A stretch of DNA of 64,000 bases, from assembly GCF_016888135.1 (NCBI RefSeq), contig NZ_JACSWB010000218.1, positions 1 to 64,000 of the forward strand, read 5' to 3'. Position numbers and translations under genes: made by a program. Shown here piece by piece: positions 17,578-50,763 of the stretch (position 1 is its first letter; each line of letters begins with the position of its first letter). This DNA comes from Leptolyngbya sp. CCY15150 (GTDB lineage: Bacteria; Cyanobacteriota; Cyanobacteriia; RECH01). A model generated the notes under the pieces. It was not told where the DNA came from. It was given only the letters and a program-made list of their open reading frames with translations, and ran no database searches.

Positions 17578-17733
17578 GATCGAAGATTACACGGAAGCCG
17601 TGCCCTGTATCCGCCAGTTTGCCGTGAGGAGGGGGCACTTCTATGCTAATCAACTCTGGCCCTGCTTGATCAACATCAGGGTCACCTTCAGGAGTGGCAC
17701 AGGCAATCTACAATCCGTCAACGCCCTGATCAT

Positions 17734-18999
17734 TCAGGCTTTGAAGACGATGGCCGGATCCACGCGGGTGACCTTTTGAATGGCGAATAGGGCTGAGCCG
17801 ACACACATAGCAACGGTGAGCCCAAAAATACCAACACCCATGATGGGCGTGATTAAGATAATGATGCCTTGGGTGGCAAATGTCCAAGCACCGAGCCCCA
17901 AACAGAGTGCCATGCTAGGAATATAGCCTAGCACAGCCATCCACATGGCCTGCTCCATAATGATGCTATAAATCACCCAGTCGGATGCACCCATGGCCTT
18001 GAGGGTGCCAAATTCACGCAGGTGATCGGAAACTGACGAGTAGAGAATTTGCCCCACCACCACAATTCCCACCACCACACCCACCGTTGCCCCCAGTCCT
18101 AGGATGAAGCCAACGCCGGTGCTATTTTGCCAGTGGTTGCGCGTCAGGGTAGACAGTTCCTCCCGCGTGTGGGCTCGGATATCAGGCATCTCCGCCTCTA
18201 GGCGCTGCTGCAACTCGGCAATATCTTGCCCCGGTTCTGCCTGGATCAGCACATAGGAAATGGGATCGGTGATATTGAGGGGTTCGAGCTCGATCTCAGG
18301 GGTGATCGTCTCGTCCTCGCCGCCAAGATTATCTTGGACGCGCTCAAACACCGTGGTGCAGGATACGCTACCTGTCTCGTCGGGGGTACAGCGCACCGTA
18401 GAGGTCAGGCCACCGGCGGCATAGGCCTTGGCATTTTCTAAGGAGGTAAATAGAAACAGGCTAGAGACAATGGATTGGGTACCTCGGGTGATGCCCGATA
18501 GGCGCACCGCAATCGAGTTAATACTGGCTTCTTCACCCAGGGCTTCCATTTCCAGGGTAGCTAGATTAGATTCATCGACCGCTACGGATTGGGGTTGCTT
18601 GAGATCCAGTTGATCGCCCTCCAGCATGTCCCAAAGGCGAAAGAGCTGGCCTTCAGGGTTATAGCCAATGATCCGCGAAGGGGCAATTTTTCCCGAGGGG
18701 CTACGCCAGCGGCCGCTATAGAGGGCGATCGCTTCTGCCCTGGCTACACCCTCCATCTCCTGTGCTTGGGCTAGTCGCTCGGCCGGAATGGGCTGGGTGA
18801 GTTCGAAGTGCAAAATTTCTTCAGAACTGATCCAAATATCAGCGGTGGATTGATCGATCAGCAGCGACGTCGAGCGCGTAAAGCCGCGCAAAATTCCAAG
18901 CTGAATGGTGACCAAGCTCACGGCAAAAATGATGCCGGCCTGGGCCACCAAAAAACGAGGAATGTCTTCTAGCAAATTTTTACGCGCAATGGAAGCCAT
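17734..18999 (-). CDS. ABC transporter permease, MacB/DevC (FtsX) type
   Basis: Permease of 421 residues with the FtsX/MacB layout: one N-terminal membrane helix (about residues 18-40), a large extracytoplasmic domain (about 41-300) and three C-terminal helices. The GTLKAMGASDWVIYSIIMEQA coupling segment is typical of this class. Two cysteines in the periplasmic part (CTPDETGSVSC) may form a disulfide. It pairs with the ATPase gene immediately downstream. DevC similarity is general; the sequence does not prove a heterocyst role. Confidence 0.87.
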   Translation of the reverse strand: MASIARKNLLEDIPRFLVAQAGIIFAVSLVTIQLGILRGFTRSTSLLIDQSTADIWISSEEILHFELTQPIPAERLAQAQEMEGVARAEAIALYSGRWRSPSGKIAPSRIIGYNPEGQLFRLWDMLEGDQLDLKQPQSVAVDESNLATLEMEALGEEASINSIAVRLSGITRGTQSIVSSLFLFTSLENAKAYAAGGLTSTVRCTPDETGSVSCTTVFERVQDNLGGEDETITPEIELEPLNITDPISYVLIQAEPGQDIAELQQRLEAEMPDIRAHTREELSTLTRNHWQNSTGVGFILGLGATVGVVVGIVVVGQILYSSVSDHLREFGTLKAMGASDWVIYSIIMEQAMWMAVLGYIPSMALCLGLGAWTFATQGIIILITPIMGVGIFGLTVAMCVGSALFAIQKVTRVDPAIVFKA

Positions 19000-44851: not shown

Positions 44852-45532
44852 AGAACGTTACATGGCGCTGCTGGTTGGACAGGGTTGGGTGCGGACAATC
44901 AGCGATCGCCCCCCTGAAGGCATCAAACCTTGGATGTTGTGATCTTCAGCAACGCCACTTATATTCAGTCTAATCATTAGATGAGGCATAGCTGACCATG
45001 GGCTGGCTGATCGTTAAAGCAGAATCTTGGTGTTGTTGAATCGATATATGATTTGCGCTCAGAAAACGTCGTGAGATGCTCACATGATCTTGATGGTGAA
45101 TGAGTTGTGCGATTTTATAGCTTTATTCAGCAACACCCTTTTATTCATGCGGATGCTCTAGACTGGCGATCCCTCTCTCTCAACGCTTTGCTGTATGGGT
45201 AAAATAGATAATATGCTGCGATCGCTACACTTAAGGATCGCGGCTGTAAACTTATTTATTCTCCTGGGGTACTGGAAAACTTGGTGTTATGCAGTCGGGC
45301 ACCATAACATCAGATGCAATATGGGTAGCATACTTTTGTTGACATAACCTGGAGCGATCGCCCCTAGGTTGCACCGTTTTAACTTGATTTCTGCAGAGGT
45401 GATCTTGTTGGAAAGGATCAGGTTTCACTACAATGTCATAATCTTGATCCAACGCATCTCAGATCCAACCCATCTGATCCAGCGCATCCCACCATCCCTG
45501 GGCAATTGGCACAGCTTGAGCAAGGAAACACC
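44852..45532. other. Repeat-containing leader upstream of the RNA-repair gene
   Basis: About 680 bp without a gene. The downstream end contains a near-palindrome AACCT...AGGTT at 45346-45370 preceded by TTGACA (45339), and three tandem 14-16-bp GATCCARCSCATC units at 45446-45489. No other gene is convincing here. Confidence 0.55.
45446..45489 (+). repeat. Three tandem GATCCARCSCATC units
   Basis: GATCCAACGCATCTCA (45446-45461), GATCCAACCCATCT (45462-45475), GATCCAGCGCATCC (45476-45489): 14-16-bp period, 43 bp upstream of the ATG of the RNA-repair gene. The placement suggests an operator or leader feature. Confidence 0.75.
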
Positions 45533-47650
45533 ATGGAACCGCGCCAGATTTCGATTCAACTGGGTAGCCTTGTTCTGCTGTCAGGGCCACCGGGCAGCGG
45601 CAAAACCACGGCCTGTCAGTCTCTGCCGCCTTCCTTCGTGGTATCTAGCGATCGCCTCCGAGAAACTTTTTTTGCTACGGCCCCAGCCATGATCGATGGG
45701 CAGGTTGGTCGCTGTCCGATGGCCGTTGATGATGCGATGATTTTTGCCGTGATGGAACAGGTGGTGCGATCGCGTCTGATGGCAGGATTAACCACCGTCG
45801 TGGATGCAACCCTATCCACTGACCAAGACCGCAAGCCATTTGCGACCATCGCCACCGCGCTCCATATTCCTGTGCAGGTGGTGGTGTTTGACCTGCCGGA
45901 GGCGCAGGTGCAGCAGCAAAATGCTCAACGTTCCTATGCTGTGCCCCACGATGTTGTATCGCTGTTTATCAAAAAACTAGATCGCCAGTCCCGTTGGCCG
46001 TTTACCCATGTCACCACTGGGTGTCAATTGGTGGTCGAAATTCCCACTATTCCCGAGGACGTAGACCTCGATGTCATCGGCGATGTCCATGGTTTGCTGC
46101 CCACGCTGGGCGAGATGCTGCATACCCTCGGCTATGACGCGGCTTTCCAGCATCCCCAAGGACGCAAACTATGTTTCCTGGGTGACCTTGTGGATCGCGG
46201 CCCCGATTCCCTGGCTGTCCTCGATCTGGTCATGGCAGCGATCGCCCAAGGCCATTACGCCATTCGCGGCAACCATGATATGAACCTGGCCAAGGGCATT
46301 CGTGACAGCTATGTGCGATCGCGTTCTACGCGGGAAACGCTGCACTATGTTCTGCAGCGGGATGCCGCCTACCAGCAGCAGATCCATGACGCCATCACCA
46401 GTTGGCCAACCTTCTATCGCTATCGAGACTATGTTTTATGCCACGGCGATATTGAATGGTTTGATCCGCTGCTCCAGCCCGGCCGTGAGCGCGTCTATGG
46501 CCGCCGTCGGATGCGGGAAGACCATGACACCGACGGTATTTTTCGGCAAACCACGCCAGATCTCACCCTGGTGCGTGGCCATATTCCCCTCACCTCCCAG
46601 GGCGATCGCGTCCATTCCCTAGAAGAGGGAGCTGGCTTTGGCGGGCCGCTGGTGGCCATGCGCCTTCCCGACCAAGACTATGTGCGTATTCCCTGCAGGT
46701 TTGACTACGAAAAGCGATCGCCCACCTTCGTCCACCGCATGGAGCATCTGGTCACCCAAAAATGGGTCAAACAGGTCACCCATGGGCAGCTTTCGCTCTA
46801 CAAATACACCTCAAAAGCCTTTTTCACCCCCAGCGTCTGGAACGAACACCCAGACATTAGGCTGGCCAGGGGGACGGTGGTGGGGCTGCATGGCGAACCG
46901 GTGAACCAACCCTTTCCCCGCACCTTTAACTACCTAGAACAGGGCACGACTCTACCGCTGGAGACCAAGGTGGTCGCCGTGGAAAAACTCAATGGCTTCT
47001 TGGCGGTCATGGTGCTCCATCCCTACGACCCCCATCAAGTTCTAGTCACCTGTTCTGGCTCCTTTGAGGGTGACTATGTGGAACGGGCCAAGGCGTTGCT
47101 CTATCAAAACAACCTCTACGGCCGCGTCTTGGGCTATCTACGCGATCGCCCCCACCTCACCTTGCTCTGGGAAGCCATCCATCCCGAGGATCCCCACATC
47201 ATTCCCTACAGCGAAGCCGACTACGGTTTGCACCTGATTGGCGTGGGAGAGTTGGGGCAAGGCTTTTGGGACGAAGCGGCCCTCGATGATCTGGCCCAGA
47301 CCTTAGCGGTACCCCGCCCGCCCTGGTGTTACAGCACCTTCCACGATGTGCTGCAGCAGGTGCGATCGGTGAACCATGAAGGCTTTATGATTCGCCATAT
47401 CGACGGCCGCTTTGCCCTCAAGCTCAAAAGTCCCTACTACCTGCGCACCAAATTTCTATCGCGCCTGACTGAACGCCGCGCCAAGTTTATGTTTTCCAAT
47501 CCGATCGCCTTCAAGAAAGACCTCGATGAAGCGCTGTGGCCTCTCGTTGACGCGGTGATTAACGGTGTGGCGGTTGAAGACTGGCTGAGCTGGTCAGATA
47601 TCCAGCGCCGCGACTACCTGCAAACTTGGATGGATGGATCCTATGGCTAG
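45533..47650 (+). CDS. Kinase-phosphatase-RNA ligase fusion (RNA end-repair)
   Basis: Predicted enzyme that heals and seals broken RNA, 705 residues. (1) P-loop kinase, 1-165: GPPGSGKTT at 18-26, for 5'-OH phosphorylation. (2) Metallophosphoesterase, 178-410: GDVHG 183-187, GDLVDRGPD 217-225, GNHD 246-249, distal RGHIPLT, for removal of 2',3'-cyclic or 3'-phosphate. (3) Covalent nucleotidyltransferase ligase, 415-705: motif I KLNG with Lys485, motif III LLWEAIHPED with Glu547, motif IV EGFMIR at 616, motif V LKLKS at 629-633. The first two domains resemble bacterial Pnkp; the ligase resembles T4 Rnl1/Trl1. No Hen1 partner lies nearby. ATG 45533 has an AAGGAAA box; TTG 45506 is less likely. 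Confidence 0.85.
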   Translation: MEPRQISIQLGSLVLLSGPPGSGKTTACQSLPPSFVVSSDRLRETFFATAPAMIDGQVGRCPMAVDDAMIFAVMEQVVRSRLMAGLTTVVDATLSTDQDRKPFATIATALHIPVQVVVFDLPEAQVQQQNAQRSYAVPHDVVSLFIKKLDRQSRWPFTHVTTGCQLVVEIPTIPEDVDLDVIGDVHGLLPTLGEMLHTLGYDAAFQHPQGRKLCFLGDLVDRGPDSLAVLDLVMAAIAQGHYAIRGNHDMNLAKGIRDSYVRSRSTRETLHYVLQRDAAYQQQIHDAITSWPTFYRYRDYVLCHGDIEWFDPLLQPGRERVYGRRRMREDHDTDGIFRQTTPDLTLVRGHIPLTSQGDRVHSLEEGAGFGGPLVAMRLPDQDYVRIPCRFDYEKRSPTFVHRMEHLVTQKWVKQVTHGQLSLYKYTSKAFFTPSVWNEHPDIRLARGTVVGLHGEPVNQPFPRTFNYLEQGTTLPLETKVVAVEKLNGFLAVMVLHPYDPHQVLVTCSGSFEGDYVERAKALLYQNNLYGRVLGYLRDRPHLTLLWEAIHPEDPHIIPYSEADYGLHLIGVGELGQGFWDEAALDDLAQTLAVPRPPWCYSTFHDVLQQVRSVNHEGFMIRHIDGRFALKLKSPYYLRTKFLSRLTERRAKFMFSNPIAFKKDLDEALWPLVDAVINGVAVEDWLSWSDIQRRDYLQTWMDGSYG

Positions 47651-49614: not shown

Positions 49615-50763
49615 TTAGTCCGGCGAAGGCAACGGTTCGGTGATGGATCGGGCGATCGCCACGCAGATTGCCAAGCTAGCATCGGTTTTAATCGCCTCTG
49701 CATGGATATGGGTGGCGGTGGCTCGGTAGCCCTGGGCCTGGAGCGCTTGAATGAGGTGCGATCGCTTAGGAATGTCCATCTGCCCTTGTTTGCCCATGTC
49801 GCCCAGGCGATAGAAATAGGGCGGCATCGTGGCTTCTGCCGCCATCAGCCGTAGTAAATGAGCGCGATCGCTCCATTGCCACTGGTCGGCAAGGGCGATC
49901 AAATCGGTCAAGGTGGCGGGATCATGCAGCGATCCTAGCCAGAGGGGGCCTGTGAGGGTGGGAGGGCGATCGCAGTCCTGGCAGGAAACTCGCCCCAACC
50001 GTCGCCAGGATACGGTTTGGTACTCGCCACAGCCATGGCAGTAGCCTAGGAATCCGTAATTCTGATCCGTGAGCATGGGCTTGGGCAACAGCCGCACCAT
50101 GACTCGATAGGTTTCACCGGTAAACAGGGAAAAGAGGGGACGGATCCCTAAATGGCGAGCGGCGGCCTGCTGCTGGAGGCTGCCAAGTAACAGGCGTAGC
50201 CCTTGCTCATGGGCGGCGGGATGGCTGCGAGCGTAGGCGGCATAAAAGCGCAGGCTTTGGGTGGGGAGATGCCCGGTGGCGGTGCGGCCATCGGTGCTGG
50301 TGAGATAGATGAGACCGCCGATGGCTGTAGCCCAGAGGCAGGTGCTGAGATGGGGCGTAGCGGCTCCAAACCCGTCTACATCCACCAAGTCGTAGTAGTC
50401 CTTCTTGAGATGGCAGGTGAAAAAAACGCGGTTGGCTTCCTCCTGGGTCACCTGTCCCCGTCCGGCTTCGAGCAAGGACTGAAGATTGGCGTTGAGGGTG
50501 GGGTGGATATCGGGATTACCATCATTGACCCAGAGCCAGTCTGCGCCGCTCTCTTGCCAATAGCGCAGCGATCGCACCCCGCAGCCGGCCATGGCATCCA
50601 ACACCCGCAGCCGCCCCGTTTGCTGGCGATGCAGGGCGGCCATGAGCACGCCTAGGTCGCGTACGACCCGAGTTTGGGGACGGAAGAAAGCGTTGCCCAC
50701 CTGAAAGCAGGCGGCTCCTTCCTTGATGAAGCTAGGTTCTCCGGGGCGATCGCTAGAATTCAC
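49615..50763 (-). CDS. trm1: tRNA (guanine-N2)-dimethyltransferase Trm1
   Basis: SAM-dependent enzyme that methylates tRNA guanine (position 26 in eukaryotes/archaea; positions 26/27 in the characterised bacterial enzyme). SAM-binding motif VLDAMAGCGVRSLRY; a zinc-binding Cys set CHGCGEYQTVSW...CQDC. 382 residues. Occurs only in a minority of bacteria. The start overlaps the last 11 bp of the fraE-like gene upstream, so transcription is probably shared. Confidence 0.88.
   Translation of the reverse strand: MNSSDRPGEPSFIKEGAACFQVGNAFFRPQTRVVRDLGVLMAALHRQQTGRLRVLDAMAGCGVRSLRYWQESGADWLWVNDGNPDIHPTLNANLQSLLEAGRGQVTQEEANRVFFTCHLKKDYYDLVDVDGFGAATPHLSTCLWATAIGGLIYLTSTDGRTATGHLPTQSLRFYAAYARSHPAAHEQGLRLLLGSLQQQAAARHLGIRPLFSLFTGETYRVMVRLLPKPMLTDQNYGFLGYCHGCGEYQTVSWRRLGRVSCQDCDRPPTLTGPLWLGSLHDPATLTDLIALADQWQWSDRAHLLRLMAAEATMPPYFYRLGDMGKQGQMDIPKRSHLIQALQAQGYRATATHIHAEAIKTDASLAICVAIARSITEPLPSPD

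Follow-up and report, generated by a model that had tools for sequence, protein, structure and literature searches.

The stretch of DNA analysed here (the window) comprises 64,000 nt of Leptolyngbya sp. CCY15150. On its + strand lies an open reading frame that begins with an ATG at position 45533, ends with a stop codon at 47648–47650, and encodes a protein of 705 amino acids, which we refer to as KPL for its predicted kinase, phosphatase, and ligase domains. A TTG codon at 45506, upstream of this ATG, would add 9 residues if used as the start; both orthologues from the same genus (93–95% amino acid identity) align from the methionine of the ATG at 45533. Within the genus, KPL has a dN/dS of 0.11–0.17, indicating that the gene is under purifying selection. 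The reading frame is real and complete, and its features are as follows.

45533..47650, + strand: KPL gene, 705 aa plus stop (ORF; orthologues 93–95% identical in two same-genus genomes; dN/dS 0.11–0.17)
45533..46027, + strand: predicted 5'-OH polynucleotide kinase domain, residues ~1–165 (AAA_33 2.6e-21; CthPnkp kinase 4jst 4e-10 by sequence and 4gp6 2.5e-11 by fold)
45584..45610, + strand: P-loop GPPGSGKTT, residues 18–26 (K24 conserved in every family member covering that position)
46058..46726, + strand: predicted 3'-end metallophosphoesterase domain, residues ~176–398 (Metallophos 3e-14; CthPnkp phosphatase 4j6o 3e-14 by sequence and 7.5e-9 by fold)
46079..46093, + strand: GDVHG metal motif, residues 183–187 (D184 and H186 invariant)
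46181..46201, + strand: GDLVDRG metal motif, residues 217–223 (D218 and R222 invariant)
46268..46279, + strand: GNHD metal motif, residues 246–249 (N247 and H248 invariant)
46730..47647, + strand: predicted Rnl1-type RNA ligase domain, residues 400–705 (PF09511 29.3 bits; T4 Rnl1 2c5u fold E 2e-10; phage short Rnl1 clade 99/98)
46985..46996, + strand: ligase motif I, K485-L-N-G488, with the predicted adenylylated lysine (K and G invariant in 33 ligases including T4 Rnl1)
47171..47173, + strand: ligase motif III glutamate E547 (invariant, 33/33)
47378..47380, + strand: ligase motif IV glutamate E616 (invariant, 33/33)
47420..47428, + strand: ligase motif V, K630-L-K632 (both Lys invariant, 33/33)

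Domains, conserved residues, and predicted fold

Pfam matches fall in the order AAA_33 (residues 13–141, E = 2.6e-21), Metallophos (181–356, 3e-14), and RNA_lig_T4_1 (477–636, 6e-6). Together with the reading frame and the motifs listed above, they bear out the kinase-phosphatase-ligase order in a single 705-residue chain that an earlier note had read from the window. By its profile scores, the window protein stands barely at the threshold of RNA_lig_T4_1 (PF09511): the whole chain scores 26.7 bits, below the cut-off of 28.3, while the ligase domain alone reaches 29.3 bits and the genome search 30 bits. The same profile is matched by 12 of 12 KPL family members (best 2.8e-12).

Kinase residues K24, D40, and R43 are kept wherever the family sequences reach these positions, the sequence of one member being truncated by the start of its contig. 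Eight phosphoesterase residues (D184, H186, D218, R222, N247, H248, H304, and H350) are invariant among 11 aligned members, as are the ligase residues K485, G488, E547, E616, K630, and K632, which are common to 33 of 33 ligases including T4 Rnl1. At the phosphatase position that aligns with the Asp of the CthPnkp IDTG segment, the cyanobacterial KPLs carry Glu. Judged from these alignments, the conservation of domains and catalytic residues is far beyond chance.

Among solved structures, the sequence matches of KPL are the phosphatase (4j6o, 3e-14) and kinase (4jst, 4e-10) of Clostridium thermocellum Pnkp (CthPnkp); the sequence search named both entries only 'Metallophosphoesterase', and their CthPnkp identity was taken from fold-search records. 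We also compared an AlphaFold2 family model of moderate confidence (mean pLDDT 67.6, poorly determined across much of residues 307–474) with known structures; a single-sequence prediction was unusable (pLDDT 31.7). The top three molecules were the CthPnkp kinase (2.5e-11), T4 Rnl1 (2c5u, 2e-10), and the CthPnkp phosphatase (7.5e-9). For the ligase region, which the earlier note had proposed to compare with Rnl1, Trl1, and Pnkp, this places a nucleotidyltransferase fold with T4 Rnl1 as its best match, at an rmsd of 13.6 over the moderately confident model. Past motif V, KPL has 73 residues as against about 130 in T4 Rnl1, and the two segments are not well alignable. The C-terminal region of T4 Rnl1 determines tRNA specificity. 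Because this longer C-terminal part is absent from KPL, a T4-like preference for tRNA should not be assumed.

Kinship of the healing and ligase halves

Profile searches suggest that KPL is a chimera of a Pnkp-like healing half and a phage-like Rnl1-type ligase half. Outside the KPL family, the healing-half profile finds its best matches in the Hen1-dependent bacterial Pnkp proteins (149–185 bits, collinear), and it scores 64–92 bits on phage kinase-phosphatase and phage KPL proteins. Pnkp-type healing domains had been proposed from the letters of the window, and sequence, profile, and fold matches all agree with that assignment. KPL as a whole was rejected as a bacterial Pnkp, since the TIGR04075 equivalog profile gives 145.9 bits against the 750 required and its best stretch covers residues 5–296 only.

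The best matches of the ligase-half profile outside the family are short (~300 aa) phage Rnl1-type ligases, with up to 276 bits. Phage KPL proteins score 37–60 bits and T4 Rnl1 only weakly (19 bits, or 61 with a broader profile), and on Pnkp proteins the KPL ligase profiles give 4.4 bits or less, with no detectable kinship to the Pnkp ligases. Of the earlier proposal of an Rnl1/Trl1-like ligase, the Rnl1-type, non-Pnkp part holds, whereas a specifically Trl1-like character does not, as the domain joins the clade of short phage Rnl1-type ligases. A KxNG motif I, which had been taken as Rnl1/Trl1-like, is common to the short phage Rnl1-type ligases and the phage KPL proteins. Kinship to Trl1 was considered separately and dropped, the similarity being a weak one of fold with a profile E of 0.23.

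In a ligase tree of 33 rows, bacterial KPLs share a clade with the short phage ligases (99/98) and lie on one side of a modestly supported branch (81/75), while T4 Rnl1 and the stand-alone Rnl1 ligases of cyanobacteria form a separate clade. In a healing-domain tree, bacterial KPL (100/98), Pnkp (100/99), and phage KPL (100/100) form three distinct clades. The simplest reading of these trees would be that the kinase-phosphatase-ligase chain arose at least twice separately, or that its ligase was swapped. It is conceivable that KPL and the phage PHROG_8238 proteins go back to a single ancestral fusion, passed on between phages and bacteria, and the shared domain order and related domains would fit such a descent; we regard it as unlikely, since the healing tree parts bacterial and phage KPLs with full support and the ligase tree rejects their union as one clade (p-AU 0.012, a test made imperfect by long branches).

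Distribution and genomic neighbourhoods

The KPL family is small and unannotated. Its members occur in Leptothoe/Leptolyngbya-type cyanobacteria, in one distant cyanobacterium, and on Variovorax megaplasmids. A genome-wide scan gave 61–66% ligase identity for Leptolyngbya, Leptothoe, Adonisia, Cyanothece SIO2G6, and related MAGs, and 40% for Variovorax, where four megaplasmids carry the gene. The scan used two narrow peptide patterns, so that its yield outside cyanobacteria is to be read as a minimum; it missed the member in the divergent species G427, which was found by profile. Among 386 cyanobacterial genomes searched by profile, KPL-grade ligase scores occur in two, the window genome and G427. 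In one copy of KPL (G058), the reading frame is shifted close to motif I.

At six Leptothoe-type loci, KPL is followed downstream by rtcB on the same strand. The two genes overlap by 1 nt at stop and start (TAATG) in L039 and are 12 bp apart in L042; in the other four loci the distance is 0.4–1.7 kb, sometimes with genes inserted. A Pfam scan of one of these rtcB genes gave 1e-126, and the other five share its start sequence. Loci L036 and L040 have no rtcB near KPL. We conclude that KPL is probably co-expressed with RtcB in the Leptothoe-type relatives. In Anabaena, where rtcB is under TrcR, translation stress lifts its repression (PMC10272220); the linkage therefore hints that KPL may belong to a similar stress response.

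Several other genes were seen at these loci. Between KPL and rtcB, on the opposite strand, L037 (5918–7520) and L038 (5918–7603) carry a Polbeta-type (MNT-like) nucleotidyltransferase gene, and L038 has another small gene there that looks like a HEPN partner; from their sequences, the insert is possibly a toxin-antitoxin pair within a repair locus. On the Variovorax megaplasmid L031, a 172-aa RF-1-domain protein with the look of PrfH is encoded at 17674–18192, about 5.5 kb from KPL. PrfH and RtcB2 protect against colicin E3, which cuts 16S rRNA (PMC9223846).

The flanks of the window KPL look like ordinary chromosomal genes without a conserved neighbour, and the window contains no tRNA genes. 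Directly downstream of KPL, the segment 48083–48397 holds a glutamine riboswitch (RF01739, 50.8 bits; gathering threshold 35) and, closely following it, a 61-aa DUF4278 ORF (PF14105, 1e-19). An ORF at 49615–50763 (− strand) resembles, by eye, an N2,N2-dimethylguanosine tRNA methyltransferase of the Trm1 type.

Other RNA repair genes in the source genome

The source genome is 99.96% complete. Its best match to the Hen1 profile TIGR04074 scores 25 bits, the level of generic methyltransferases, compared with 688–714 bits in two control genomes that have a true Pnkp. The earlier claim that no Hen1 lies nearby thus extends to the entire genome, in which none rises above background. The genome search for Hen1, RtcB, and anticodon nucleases that the note had suggested returned no Hen1, no RtcB, and no PrrC/RloC in the window genome; Rnl2 and RlaP were likewise looked for and not found, and KPL is the only PF09511 match there. 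A PrrC/RloC-type anticodon nuclease encoded locally was discarded, as PF13166 has no match in the genome. With Hen1, RtcB, Rnl2, RlaP, and PrrC/RloC all absent from these searches, KPL is the only recognised RNA ligase of this genome. Across the window genus there is no RtcB at all and no Hen1 above the methyltransferase background. In the other genus of the same family (G003:C66:6144-7447), rtcB is present as three overlapping fragments with stops, which reflects decay or an assembly error.

Phage counterparts

Among 48 viral loci with a ligase close to that of KPL, the fetched stretch includes a kinase gene in 40 cases, and both a kinase and a phosphoesterase gene in 28. The latter count is approximate, since one of the two phosphoesterase profiles was built on four sequences, only one of which passes the Pfam cut-off. 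In the E. coli phage S127 BCL3, Metallophos, AAA_33, and ligase genes lie side by side, as checked with Pfam. Kinase and ligase are fused in nine of the 48 viral contigs, and a kinase-phosphatase-ligase fusion occurs in none of them (0/48); three scans of viral contigs found no KPL of the bacterial ligase type. Because close phage ligases usually adjoin separate kinase and phosphoesterase genes, KPL looks like a cellular version, fused into one chain, of a toolkit whose parts are mostly separate genes in phages.

IMG/VR contigs L089, L090, L092, L093, and L095–L099 encode kinase-Rnl1 ligase fusions of about 430 aa; in viral contig L075 (2448–5257), an Rnl1-type ligase gene is followed by a fused kinase-phosphatase gene; and the 'RNA ligase' of Staphylococcus phage CF5 (L049, 1367–4702) has 1111 aa, with a long insert parting the kinase P-loop from the rest.

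Comparison with known repair systems

KPL shares with bacterial Pnkp (TIGR04075; CthPnkp, AvaPnkp) the order kinase-metallophosphoesterase-ligase and healing domains that are homologous and collinear, but differs in a ligase unrelated at the profile level, a chain ~140–170 aa shorter, and the lack of a Hen1 partner. Hen1 adjoins Pnkp at all six Pnkp genes examined, and the Pnkp ligase needs Hen1 for activation and is inactive without it (PMC4411300). Similarly, the Pnkp1-Rnl-Hen1 complex of Capnocytophaga (PMC4411300) combines bacterial RNA end healing with sealing, yet consists of three proteins and requires Hen1, unlike the single KPL chain.

The closest ligase relatives are the short phage Rnl1-type ligases (PHROG_562-like, such as that of Pseudomonas phage phiK7A1; 34% identity, 276 bits). 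These phages have the same three functions in neighbouring genes, as separate phage-encoded proteins, and their phosphoesterase is of a small divergent type. The phage PHROG_8238 KPLs (SPbeta-like, Herelleviridae, and Fusobacterium phages) carry AAA_33, Metallophos, and RNA_lig_T4_1 in one chain and in the same order, but share about 21% identity with KPL and fall into separate clades for both halves. From these sequences, the kinase-phosphatase-Rnl1 ligase architecture itself is not new, with a separate lineage in Firmicute and Fusobacterium phages.

T4 Pnkp and Rnl1 share with KPL the Rnl1-type ligase fold (2c5u) and the same overall heal-and-seal logic, but are two proteins, with the ligase on a different branch. 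The Rnl1 gene pairs of cyanobacteria likewise encode two proteins, a kinase followed by an apparent HAD-type phosphatase, and a ligase on a different branch from that of KPL. In other cyanobacteria (loci L010, L011, L063, and L064), a stand-alone Rnl1-type ligase gene adjoins a gene whose product joins a T4-like kinase to a probable HAD phosphatase; by their sequences, these pairs appear to reproduce on the chromosome the two-gene repair arrangement of T4.

Fungal Trl1 has its ligase domain first. Like KPL, it holds three activities in one chain, with a ligase similar at the fold level (9qw7, 6n67); its order is ligase-kinase-CPD (2H), whereas KPL is ligase-last with a metallophosphoesterase, and a Pfam scan of KPL gave no 2H domain match. 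The 2H cyclic phosphodiesterase of Trl1 leaves a 2'-phosphate (PMC3400036). Our literature search, whose reach did not include a 2016 survey of RNA repair systems, found no description of the KPL protein.

Discussion

We propose, with a probability of about 0.82, that KPL is a Hen1-independent, single-chain enzyme that heals and seals broken RNA. The earlier note described the protein accurately, and its main idea, a self-contained RNA repair enzyme, is likely right. In the Pnkp and Rnl1 families, healing by phosphatase and kinase is followed by ATP-dependent sealing. By analogy with these families, from which we infer the chemistry and the order of steps, KPL would act on RNA cut by a transesterifying ribonuclease: its metallophosphoesterase would take off the resulting 2',3'-cyclic or 3' phosphate, its P-loop kinase would phosphorylate the 5'-OH end, and its ligase would join the healed 3'-OH and 5'-PO4 ends through a K485-AMP intermediate. 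Since the ligase is a compact domain of ~300 residues like the autonomous phage ligases, it would presumably work independently of Hen1 and yield a product without a 2'-O-methyl mark.

KPL might instead carry out a regular RNA processing step, such as circularising or splicing a particular RNA. Long-term purifying selection and the absence of obvious toxin neighbours within the window are compatible with such a role, but the patchy occurrence of KPL-grade ligases (2/386 sampled cyanobacterial genomes) means that no core process depends on KPL, and healing domains that match Pnkp fit ends of the ribotoxin type; we therefore hold regular processing to be improbable. It is just as doubtful that KPL, rather than having a host function, was recently captured from phages as a counter-defence gene. 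Its ligase half does group with phage ligases, and phages have both the same three functions and KPL proteins of another lineage; against a capture stand the conservation of KPL in several genera, a healing half nearer to cellular Pnkp than to the phage versions, and the fact that prophage genes are not evident around KPL in the window or in relatives. A role for KPL mainly at DNA ends, in repair or processing, is very improbable: such end-healing domains can accept DNA (the title of 4mde describes the CthPnkp kinase with a DNA product) and the genomic context of the window KPL is uninformative, but the ligase belongs to an RNA ligase family (PF09511, T4 Rnl1 fold) and rtcB, itself an RNA ligase gene, adjoins KPL in relatives.

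Returning to KPL as an RNA repair enzyme, its pairing with RtcB raises a further, tentative idea. RtcB seals cyclic-phosphate and 5'-OH ends directly. In the Leptothoe-type relatives, KPL and RtcB might form one operon joining two chemically opposite sealing routes (5'-PO4/3'-OH and 3'-P/5'-OH), of which the window lineage would have kept the KPL arm only. If this were true, cut RNA could be mended by one enzyme whatever its end state.

A KPL knockout would be a clean test of cyanobacterial RNA repair, because the source genome has no other recognised RNA ligase. KPL alone could also be useful as a reagent to join RNAs that end in 2',3'-cyclic phosphate and 5'-OH. More broadly, the family points to a shuffling of healing and sealing modules between cells and phages, and KPL is predicted to perform all three healing and sealing steps without Hen1, which would amount to RNA repair without the protective 2'-O-methyl mark.
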